Origin: Oscillospiraceae bacterium
Lineage (GTDB): Bacteria; Bacillota; Clostridia; Oscillospirales; CAG-272
Length of the DNA: 44,840 bases
NCBI GenBank assembly: GCA_015063385.1
Contig: SVUG01000015.1
Location: 1 to 44,840, forward strand
Direction of reading: 5' to 3'
Numbering within the stretch: position 1 is the first letter of the stretch; each line of letters begins with the position of its first letter. Both the position numbers and the translations under genes were made by a program. Below, one piece after another: positions 18,572-28,435 of this stretch. Below the pieces are notes generated by a model. The model was not told the origin of the DNA. It made no database searches and saw nothing but the letters and a program-made list of their open reading frames with translations.

Positions 18572-18718
18572 ATACCTCCAAGAACAAAAAAATGCATACG
18601 GAGAATCTCCGCACGCATACAAAATTCCTCCTGCGAGGAAAAACGTATTAACCATAACGCACCTTTGTGGTATGGTGAGAACGGAAATTCTGCTTCAAAT
18701 AATAAGTCCTTTGACTTC
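18572..18718 (-). promoter_or_regulatory. infC-rpmI-rplT leader, probable L20-type autoregulatory leader
   Basis: The leader is about 147 nt. On the minus strand it contains a hairpin ACCATA...TATGGT (18651-18676), a hairpin TTCCTC-GCAG-GAGGAA (18625-18640) that includes an AGGAGG, and an intrinsic terminator (18583-18618) directly before the infC RBS. This fits transcription attenuation by L20, as known for Bacillus. ATG at 18618 lies eight bases after AGGAGG and opens a 50-codon frame that crosses the terminator and the infC start in another frame. Confidence 0.75.
18583..18618 (-). terminator. attenuator hairpin in the infC leader
   Basis: The arms at 18592-18604 and 18606-18618 pair over 13 positions with two G-U wobbles (innermost pairs open to make the loop). 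On the minus strand they are followed by TTTTTTT (18585-18591) and then by the infC SD. Its position makes it an attenuator, not an operon end. Confidence 0.82.
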
Positions 18719-18836: not shown

Positions 18837-18865
18837 TTTACAACCACCCCAAAATAGTGTATAAT
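18837..18865 (+). promoter_or_regulatory. promoter of the small RNA at 18872
   Basis: TTTACA (18837-18842), 17-bp spacer, TATAAT (18860-18865). Predicted start near 18872, which coincides with the first closing-stem base of the structured RNA. Confidence 0.8.
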
Positions 18866-18871
18866 AATCAC

Positions 18872-18995
18872 GCTGCGCAGCTCTCGAAAGATGCATCAAG
18901 CTTATGATGACTATACCGACGCGGGTTGTGGTTATTGGTACATATTGCAGCAAGGAGAACCATCACGTGGGGGCGTGGCGGTTCTTTTTTTATTT
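18872..18995 (+). ncRNA. unassigned structured small RNA (about 120 nt)
   Basis: A separate transcription unit with its own promoter and terminator and no reading frame with an RBS. Helices I can draw are a closing stem GCTGCG/TGCAGC (18872-18877 with 18946-18951), a CGAA-capped hairpin around 18882-18891, a hairpin CATCA/TGATG (18894-18909) and a stem TACC/GGTA (18914-18917 with 18937-18940). A terminator hairpin follows. It does not match the SRP, tmRNA, RNase P or common riboswitch cores I know. It could be a trans-acting sRNA or a riboswitch-like leader for the SPFH operon, although that operon has its own promoter 11 bp after the T-run. Confidence 0.6.
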
Positions 18996-18999
18996 TTTT
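18956..18999 (+). terminator. terminator of the small RNA
   Basis: AGAACC-AT-CACG pairs with CGTG-GC-GGTTCT around a G-rich loop and is followed by TTTTTTATTTTTTT. Confidence 0.85.
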
Positions 19000-19010
19000 A
19001 GCATAAACTA

Positions 19011-19039
19011 TTGACAAGCCCGCATCAATATGATATCAT
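19011..19039 (+). promoter_or_regulatory. promoter of the SPFH/RHH operon
   Basis: TTGACA (19011-19016), 17-bp spacer, TATCAT (19034-19039). The -10 element is embedded in a tandem palindromic repeat. Confidence 0.85.
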
Positions 19040-19049
19040 TATGATATCA
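19029..19049. promoter_or_regulatory. tandem TATGATATCA operator
   Basis: TATGATATCA occurs at 19029-19038 and again at 19040-19049, an 11-bp period or one helical turn. Each copy contains the palindrome TGATATCA. The array covers the -10 element, so a bound protein would block RNA polymerase. The ribbon-helix-helix product of the operon's second gene is the obvious candidate, by inference. Confidence 0.65.
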
Positions 19050-19077: not shown

Positions 19078-20100
19078 ATGAAAGAAAAAATTCTTACCAC
19101 AAAAAAGAACGGCATGGCTATGATGCTCCTTACAATTCTTCTTATAATCGCTTCATTTGCCGTGCTTATTTACGGTGCAATCCTTAGCGACGATATAGCC
19201 CCCTCACCTCTCCTTTTCGTAGGTCTGGTGCTGGTATGTATCACCTGGATTCCCCTGCTCGGTCTGAAGATTCTTAAGCCTCAGGAGGCGCTCGTTCTTA
19301 CCCTGTTCGGCAAGTACGTCGGTACTATCAAGGGCGACGGCTTCTACTGGGTAAACCCCTTCTGCACAGGCTTCAACCCCGCTGCAAAGACCAAGCTTAA
19401 CCAGAGCGGTGACGTTATGCAGGCGGCTTCTCTGTTCTCCGTCACAGAGAACGGTGGCACGAGCAACGTGACGATCACCACCGAATCCAACAAGATTTCT
19501 CTCAAGGTTATGACTCTCAACAACAGCCGTCAGAAGATTAACGACTGCCTCGGCAACCCCGTGGAAATCGGAATTGCAGTTATCTGGCGTGTCGTTGATA
19601 CCGCGGCAGCAGTATTTAACGTAGACAACTACAAGGAATTCCTTTCCCTGCAGTGTGACAGCGCGCTTCGCAACGTAGTAAGAATTTACCCCTATGACGT
19701 AGCTCCCGGTGTCGATACCACGGGTGACGGCATAGCCGACGAGGGCAGCCTTCGTGGTTCAAGCGAGGTTGTTGCAGCAAGAATTCGTGACGAGATTCAG
19801 TCCAGAGTCAACGAAGCGGGCATAGAAATTATCGAAGCCAGAATCACCTACCTTGCATACGCACCTGAAATTGCAGCCGTAATGCTCCAGCGCCAGCAGG
19901 CATCAGCAATAATCGATGCAAGAAGAATGATCGTTGACGGTGCTGTGGGAATGGTCGAGATGGCTCTTGAGCGTCTTGCCGAAAATGATACCGTCAAGCT
20001 TGACGAGGAAAGAAAAGCGGCTATGGTTTCCAATCTTCTCGTTGTTCTTTGCGGAAATAAGGACGCGCAGCCTGTCGTTAACTCAGGCTCTATATATTGA
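19078..20100 (+). CDS. SPFH/Band 7 domain membrane protein
   Basis: SPFH-superfamily protein of 340 aa. Two N-terminal hydrophobic segments (about residues 13-36 and 42-66) form a membrane anchor. The SPFH domain follows, starting LKPQEALVLTLFGKYVG, with the coiled-coil-prone helix AAVMLQRQQASAIIDARRMIV near residue 265. SPFH proteins form membrane microdomain scaffolds or multimeric cages (family knowledge). The codons favour AAC and TTC, like the ribosomal genes here, suggesting strong expression. An RHH gene follows within 2 bp. The specific role is unknown. Confidence 0.88.
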   Translation: MKEKILTTKKNGMAMMLLTILLIIASFAVLIYGAILSDDIAPSPLLFVGLVLVCITWIPLLGLKILKPQEALVLTLFGKYVGTIKGDGFYWVNPFCTGFNPAAKTKLNQSGDVMQAASLFSVTENGGTSNVTITTESNKISLKVMTLNNSRQKINDCLGNPVEIGIAVIWRVVDTAAAVFNVDNYKEFLSLQCDSALRNVVRIYPYDVAPGVDTTGDGIADEGSLRGSSEVVAARIRDEIQSRVNEAGIEIIEARITYLAYAPEIAAVMLQRQQASAIIDARRMIVDGAVGMVEMALERLAENDTVKLDEERKAAMVSNLLVVLCGNKDAQPVVNSGSIY

Positions 20101-20102
20101 TA

Positions 20103-20291
20103 ATGAAGGATTCGCAGGATAACGCAAAAAAGCAGATTCCGCTGCGCCTATCGGCAAAGCTGTACGCCGCACTTGCAAAATGGGCGGAAGACGATTTCCG
20201 TTCCATAAACGGACAGATAGAATATCTCCTTACCGAGTGCGTCAAGAAGCGCGGTGTCAATCTTGCTGACAAGGAAGATGAATCCAAATAA
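20103..20291 (+). CDS. Arc-like ribbon-helix-helix DNA-binding protein
   Basis: Small protein of 62 aa. The segment KQIPLRLSAKLYAALAKWAEDDFRS, then INGQIEYLLTEC, matches the strand-helix-helix layout of Arc/MetJ-type repressors, which bind as dimers on short tandem palindromes (family knowledge). The ATG at 20103 is two bases after the SPFH stop; a TTG at 20097 overlapping that stop (TTGA) is an alternative start. With no strong SD, translation is probably coupled. It is often found next to SPFH genes. Likely autoregulator through the tandem operator at 19029-19049 (inference). Confidence 0.85.
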   Translation: MKDSQDNAKKQIPLRLSAKLYAALAKWAEDDFRSINGQIEYLLTECVKKRGVNLADKEDESK

Positions 20292-28203: not shown

Positions 28204-28394
28204 CTTGTGAACCCGCGAGGCCGTGTAAAGTAAGCTTTAACCCGGTCTGACCAGGTGGGTGTCCTCTCTGTTTCATTGCGCTTCCAACGTCCGCTTTAGA
28301 GGGGGTCACCATTTAAGGCAAGCGCCCTCGGCGGGAGGCCTGCATCCCGACAACAGAAGTTTATCCGGACTCCCTTGCAATGTGTGTAGGTTCA
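28156..28394 (-). ncRNA. large structured non-coding RNA (raiA-motif-like or 6S-like), identity unresolved
   Basis: A roughly 240-nt minus-strand unit between an extended -10 promoter and a strong terminator. Stems I can draw in transcript order: TGAACC (28389-28394) with GGTTCA downstream, CATTGC with GCAATG, GTCCG with CGGAC, the hairpin CGGGA...TCCCG, GAGGG with CCCTC around CTTGCCTTAAATGG, and CTGGTC with GACCGG. TCTGTT inside the CATTGC/GCAATG domain can pair with AACAGA just outside it, a possible pseudoknot. Size, GC-rich core and dense pairing are far from random spacer. The pseudoknot argues against a rod-like 6S RNA. Confidence 0.65.
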
Positions 28395-28400
28395 AATATC

Positions 28401-28409
28401 ACAATATCA
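28401..28409 (-). promoter_or_regulatory. extended -10 promoter of the structured RNA
   Basis: Minus strand TG-A-TATTGT, an extended -10 element, with only a weak -35 (AATTTT, 28424-28429). The predicted start is near 28394, the first base of the closing stem. Confidence 0.55.
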
Positions 28410-28435
28410 CGCACCACGCAGGAAAAATTTAAATT

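Follow-up and report, generated by a model that had tools for sequence, protein, structure and literature searches.

Between infC and an SPFH/Band 7 gene of an Oscillospiraceae bacterium lies a short region that was predicted, from its letters alone, to hold an independent structured RNA of about 120 nt, either a new small RNA or a riboswitch-like leader. Is this element a gene in its own right or a regulatory part of one of its neighbours, and, if it is a gene, what would its product act on? We addressed these questions in the window, the whole analysed stretch of 44,840 nucleotides (contig SVUG01000015.1), and in related genomes of the genus, family, order, class and phylum.

A candidate transcription unit between infC and an SPFH gene

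All features of the element lie on the forward strand. It begins with a sigma-70/A-type promoter, TTTACA-N17-TATAAT (18837-18865), in which TTTACA (18837-18842) and TATAAT (18860-18865) are separated by the predicted spacer of 17 nt and match 11 of 12 consensus positions. The promoter was scored in the window, and similar promoters are found at homologues. Taken alone, the window promoter is weak evidence, because 1.9 kb contain five promoter-like sites where shuffles average 2.5. An RNA of about 120-125 nt (18872-18996) is predicted, with ends placed from the promoter and the terminator. Its first bases, GCUGC (18872-18876), pair with GCAGC (18947-18951) in a closing helix, P1, which appears both in the fold and in a four-species comparison and closes a domain of 80 nt (18872-18951). 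A strong intrinsic terminator follows (18952-18998), consisting of a hairpin (18952-18989) and a U tract and supported by the fold and by double changes in the four species. With the terminator, the RNA folds at -42.3 kcal/mol (z -3.18 against shuffles). The closing helix and the separate strong terminator of the original prediction are confirmed.

Within P1, a tentative helix P2 (5' strand 18879-18886, partner 18920-18927, one mismatch) was placed by manual comparison of relatives; the minimum-energy fold favours another pairing. The hairpin P3, CAUCA-AGCUUA-UGAUG (18894-18909), forms the conserved core, and its loop (18899-18904) fits A-N-Y-U-N-R. Further downstream is a 15-nt segment, GGUUAUUGGUACAUA (18930-18944), a candidate seed that is the same in four species of the window's clade except for one insertion of 1 nt; it is unpaired in the comparative structure and partly paired in the minimum-energy fold. 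Without the terminator, the RNA folds at z -0.65, and 48 of 200 shuffles fold as well. Folding energy alone therefore leaves the inner helices unproven, and comparative evidence is needed.

The infC gene of the window, recognized by its IF3 domains, is divergent from the RNA and has its own promoter (18753-18725), and the SPFH gene, downstream of the RNA, has its own promoter-like site (19011-19039). Several observations concern these neighbours themselves. The infC leader (18580-18701, reverse strand) resembles the L20 leader (RF00558) at 41.5 bits, below the gathering score of 58.7. In 15 of 17 genus loci there are likewise matches of 34-53 bits that stay under the threshold; a genuine but divergent L20 leader of the window's genus group thus probably escapes the Rfam model. 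On the other side, two TGATATCA palindromes (19031-19049, forward strand) lie within the SPFH promoter, and by eye similar repeats precede SPFH in some relatives. Immediately behind SPFH lies the gene for a ribbon-helix-helix-like protein (20097-20291; Pfam match below the cut-off), which could repress SPFH.

The element in the genus

Among 98 related genomes, 11 matched the element. The whole element was present in three genomes besides its own (83, 74 and 73% identity), always between infC and SPFH, and the other seven matches were pieces of 19-35 bases. When the four species were aligned, 97.7% of cells paired (2 of 500 shuffles as high), and compensatory cells numbered 6 against 2.4 in shuffles (0 of 500 as high). 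Two of the seven counted P1 pairs and two of the ten counted terminator pairs change on both sides, while P3 is invariant. The number of pairs with a double change gives weak support (12 of 500 shuffles as high), and the number of pair types, 8 against 8.9 in shuffles with 455 of 500 as high, does not favour the structure.

We found infC in 49 of 69 genus genomes, and the hairpin with its promoter lies divergently upstream of infC in 18 of these 49. In the other 31 no such RNA was found upstream of infC; two of these had too little flank (296 bases in G056, none in G106). In 22 of the 31 RNA-less loci, lon occupies the place of the RNA, about 300-500 bases from infC. The gene after the RNA is SPFH in the window and in the three nearest relatives, and recG, identified by a RecG wedge domain, in G013. 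The P3 stem covaries among the 18 genus sequences: 15 cells are double-changed against 4.6 (0 of 500 shuffles as high), and the number of pairs with a double change is 3 against 2.2 (180 of 500 as high).

A model built from these 18 sequences, R1, covers only P3 and its surroundings. When run over the genus, it recovered the 18 training sequences, all with E values of 1.9e-6 or lower, and no other match fell below 1e-3. A second R1 match in the window's own genome, at C20:225796, lies inside an ABC-transporter permease gene and was rejected. The pattern TCAADCTHATGA was also searched on both strands of the 69 genus genomes and gave 143 sites against 31 for a reversed control. This excess suggested a multicopy family, an idea that was rejected; the 20 of these 143 sites that were read in context seemed by eye to be coding or to be without the RNA's promoter and stalk.

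A compact form with covarying helices across the family

R1 was then applied to 246 genomes sampled from a larger set of the family. With an E limit of 0.5, which lets in weak and doubtful matches, 136 of them (54 of 71 genera) matched, and in other genera E values went down to 1.5e-7. The better matches are a compact form of about 70 nt, GCACAAC...GCGGAAUAUCAAUCUUAUGAUAUCA-N-C-N-CGC...GUUGUGC-U6, whose P1 doubles as the terminator hairpin. From 67 family loci outside the window's genus, an alignment of 59 sequences, A4, was prepared. It omits a truncated locus of uncertain position (L100), a locus whose hairpin pattern was unmatched (L157), two coding-like loci (L146 and L156) and four near-duplicates of more than 90% identity. 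Counts of context and promoter, which are given over 66 loci, omit L100 only.

The RNAalifold consensus of A4 gave P3 only, and P1 and P2 were placed by hand from single-sequence folds and then counted; the A4 structure is thus partly chosen from the same sequences. Over the three helices, 84.9% of the cells pair. Compensatory cells number 161 against 55.8 in shuffles (0 of 500 as high), pairs with changes on both sides number 17 of 21 against 14.2 (5 of 500 as high), and the covariation score is 0.37 against about 0.02-0.16 for slid structures. With one sequence per genus (27 genera), the count of compensatory cells is 66, whereas none of 2000 shuffles exceeds 37, and each of P1, P2 and P3 lies above all of its own 500 shuffles; as the shuffles ignore phylogeny, these values mean strong covariation and not a formal probability. 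Since R1 models only P3 and its surroundings, the way in which members were detected has little bearing on the pairing of P1 and P2 or on the promoter, but the constancy of the P3 loop is in part a selection effect.

In the family, three covarying helices thus surround P3, and in the four species P1 and the terminator carry double changes. The covariation among homologues supports the inner helices. Covariation had been put forward as one check of the prediction and an Rfam search as another; the homologues do covary, and Rfam returned no family over the RNA. These results indicate that the element is almost certainly a conserved structured RNA. In many members, such as L015, L017, L090, L114 and L120, another hairpin stands 5' of P1, and CCAA- or CAAU-like letters are frequent in its loop; among the members compared, no shared motif or model for this hairpin was established.

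Distribution

A second model, R2, was made from the 59 A4 sequences, none of which comes from the window's genus. R2 matched 104 of 236 family genomes in 35 of 71 genera (E up to 0.01, training genomes included), with two copies in G568 and one in each other matching genome. In 345 order genomes it gave 14 matches, all within the window's own family, and in 291 class genomes one weak match (L253, E 0.0113), which by eye had no clear promoter or terminator and was left uncounted. The 111 phylum genomes gave 0 matches in a search without a known positive, an empty answer that shows little. The strict filters of these R2 genome searches can lose weak matches, and they missed the window's own genome. 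Phage records searched with the element gave no match, and an exact-promoter pattern over 394 order genomes proved too strict, finding 5 genomes only.

A scan of a named genome collection with a 22-base pattern yielded 83 stretches, 80 of which were taken as loci. R2 matches 79 of the 80, several apparently being the same contigs as in training; L186, a Treponema-labelled contig without an R2 match, was set aside. By title, nearly every pattern locus comes from Clostridia, Clostridiales, Oscillospiraceae or uncultured Ruminococcus MAGs, and many carry isolate names that refer to the ruminant gut.

Applied to the 18 genus loci, R2 placed the RNA site at the 11 best of 66 matches, and the other seven scored at most 17.2 bits. 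The genus relatives L056 and L037 reached E values of 2.6e-9 and 8.7e-9. In the window, R2 hit the right place at 16.7 bits (E 0.19), fifth of 29 window matches. The window RNA would accordingly be classed as a divergent member, and its membership rests on the genus intermediates, the shared position and the hairpin. Two further loci concern cotJ-type genes. Near the centre of L082 (G456, same family), a promoter, a CCAAUCUUAUGG hairpin and a terminator lie, by eye, beside a gene that reads like spore-coat cotJ; this may be a member that has diverged strongly. In another genus, the member L135 adjoins cotJA.

The conserved hairpin and its candidate partners

The loop A-N-Y-U-N-A is present in 59 of 59 A4 sequences and 18 of 18 genus sequences (77 of 77 together), a constancy that is partly search-guided. 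Beneath it in A4 is the stem UCA/UGA, with U48, C49, A50, U57 and G58 in 59 of 59 and A59 in 56, and outside this stem G42-C72 (58 G and 54 C of 59) and A44 (54 of 59) are fixed. Loop position 2 alternates between U (30 of 59) and G (26 of 59), while U, C and A all occur at position 5. The apical loop contains a YUNR motif in every sequence of both sets. According to PMC6562991, YUNR loops can form a U-turn that favours rapid RNA-RNA contact and serve as a scaffold.

An antisense-type small RNA, in which the YUNR loop would start kissing or seed pairing with target mRNAs, is one partner type that the hairpin suggests. It is consistent with the constancy of the loop, with the scaffold role described in PMC6562991 and with the conserved 15-nt segment of the window's clade, which is unpaired in the comparative structure. 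However, loop positions 2 and 5 vary, and no single base pairs with both U and G at position 2, which makes a fixed complementary target unlikely. Moreover, complementarity barely exceeds that of non-cognate pairs, being slightly higher for the neighbouring infC leader (z -1.75, n=32) and for the start of lon (z -1.93, n=38), and relatedness could explain both values. We consider antisense pairing the main alternative to a protein partner, though a rather unlikely one.

Because the switching between U and G at position 2 argues against a fixed target, a protein partner is favoured by inference. That this partner is a conserved protein bound by the P3 hairpin is a tentative reading to which we give slightly less than even weight. 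A search for Hfq gave no match in any of the 69 genus genomes, many of them incomplete, nor in any of the 22 good ones, with a control that detects it in 5 of 14 known genomes; the RNA is accordingly not placed among the Hfq-dependent small RNAs, whose hosts encode Hfq. CsrA-sponge RNAs of the CsrB type carry several GGA motifs in hairpin loops. The RNA described here has one GGA or GAA motif, as read from alignment columns, and it is in an internal loop.

Genomic context and autonomy of the predicted RNA gene

If the RNA were a leader, its position and orientation relative to one gene should be constant. Over the 66 family loci, 21 have divergent infC and co-directional lon, 17 have lon only and 7 have divergent infC only. 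In 7 loci from four genera (L098, L101, L109, L113, L115, L138 and L142) the RNA is reversed relative to lon and/or infC, and in 14 neither gene is within the flank, two of these (L146 and L156) being probable false matches. The RNA is most commonly located between infC and lon, and neighbours away from this place include, by their domains, an HflX-like GTPase, argG and cotJA. The predicted location between infC and SPFH is therefore true of the window as a local arrangement, but elsewhere in the family its usual site is the infC-lon interval or a place next to either gene, and sometimes it is found in another position altogether. The reversals suggest repeated flipping or re-insertion of what would be a tiny RNA gene.

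The exact TTTACA-N17-TATAAT that was predicted in the window is found upstream in 53 of 66 family loci. Promoter scores reach 11 or more at 56 of the 66, whereas shuffled windows do so in 0.4% of cases and 660 other upstream windows in 0.3%.

Control of lon in cis (of SPFH in the window) by an attenuator or riboswitch, with a ligand that would stabilise or melt the P1 terminator, would account for the 38 of 66 loci where the RNA is upstream of lon in the same direction and for P1 doubling as terminator. It does not account for the 7 reversed loci or the 14 without either gene within reach, and 22 of the 31 RNA-less genus loci keep lon beside infC. In addition, a -10-like hexamer lies between the RNA and lon in 38 of 38 loci, by a permissive pattern without a control, and SPFH in the window has the promoter-like site noted above. 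No antiterminator came to notice. We therefore regard this explanation as improbable. The riboswitch-like leader of the original prediction is likewise disfavoured, as the RNA ends at its own terminator, its neighbours vary and its orientation is reversed in some members, whereas a new small RNA is supported by the lack of an Rfam match, the strong covariation and the RNA's own promoter and terminator.

The reversed and other positions indicate an autonomous gene, not a leader or riboswitch, and since the variety of contexts together with the conserved promoter speaks against a leader of a single gene, a trans-acting RNA is the natural reading. Comparison of the sequences has shown a predicted promoter and terminator, covarying helices, a conserved loop and autonomy from the neighbours. 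From these we infer transcription and action in trans, and the element is probably an autonomous, trans-acting small RNA, whatever its partner.

It was also considered that the AUG in the P3 loop might open a short ORF, which would make the RNA a tiny mRNA or a mimic of an initiation site. The AUG is present in all 59 A4 rows, no stop precedes the end of the terminator in 53 of 65, and GGA or GAA lies about 11-12 nt upstream. However, the peptides diverge past the first residues, where they follow the covarying stem, and no conserved peptide emerges; by eye there is no good ribosome-binding site, and the conserved segment of the window's clade is read in different frames. This explanation is very improbable. 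A coincidental terminator-like hairpin without function, with which ordinary folding in the absence of the terminator and the many relatives lacking the RNA would agree, is hardly credible beside three helices covarying over 27 genera, a strong promoter, varied positions and a loop whose conservation is in part a selection effect.

A proposed mode of action

Our preferred reading of the element as a trans-acting small RNA leads to the following proposal. Transcription from a strong housekeeping-type promoter would end at the RNA's own terminator and yield a short product. The long stalk of P1 and P2, whose sequence appears to change freely while pairing is kept, would contain an asymmetric internal loop and display a single hairpin that hardly varies, with a stem NNNUCA/UGANNN and an A-N-Y-U-N-A loop of U-turn type. 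This displayed hairpin may be the working part, acting in trans without Hfq, and a conserved protein would bind it, so that the RNA sequesters or escorts that protein.

The U-turn hairpin holds an AUG that starts two bases after the turn U and has a GRA purine motif beneath its stem. More speculatively, the RNA might serve as a decoy that captures a conserved RNA-binding protein, perhaps one from the translation-initiation machinery that the adjacent infC encodes, and so act as a widespread, Hfq-independent, global regulator in the way that 6S RNA acts on RNA polymerase; we think this unlikely.

Relation to known RNAs

No Rfam 15 family reached or approached its gathering score over the RNA, in the window at gathering and relaxed thresholds or in 17 + 16 homologous loci. 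The L20 leader (RF00558) is likewise a structured RNA beside infC-rpmI-rplT, but its model matches on the infC strand, whereas the RNA described here is on the other strand, is not matched by that model, is not a leader and is sometimes away from infC. 6S RNA is an autonomous long-hairpin small RNA that needs no Hfq. Our RNA resembles it as an autonomous long hairpin, but is shorter and without an Rfam match, and a separate 6S RNA (RF00013, 61.1 bits) is present in the window at 28206-28427 on the reverse strand.

Orphan structured RNAs such as raiA and OLE came from comparative genomics. PMC8040213 reports thousands of orphan structured RNA candidates from the same approach, and the RNA described here resembles such RNAs in its covariation, its occurrence in uncultured gut bacteria and its orphan function, but matches no Rfam 15 family. 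With hok/Sok, pIP501 RNAII/III and bsrE/SR5, which are named in PMC6562991, it shares an apical loop that fits YUNR. Unlike those U-turn antisense systems, it has no opposite-strand target that we could see, the loop base beside the motif varies, and it is a single chromosomal gene across a taxonomic family. In the literature, no title or beginning of an abstract dealing with this RNA was found. The word 'infC' is absent from the main texts of PMC8040213 and PMC7247131. The element is best filed as a new family of small structured RNAs, apparently uncatalogued as judged from Rfam 15 and these main texts, although it could coincide with one of the PMC8040213 candidates.

The family adds a well-supported structured RNA without an Rfam 15 match to a large group of mostly uncultured Clostridia of the gut and rumen. 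Hfq was not found in the window's genus, and small-RNA regulation there would have to work otherwise. The difference between a nearly invariant hairpin and a freely covarying stalk shows which nucleotides to test, which allows a direct search for a partner. With the covariance models, the RNA could be annotated in metagenomes and metatranscriptomes.
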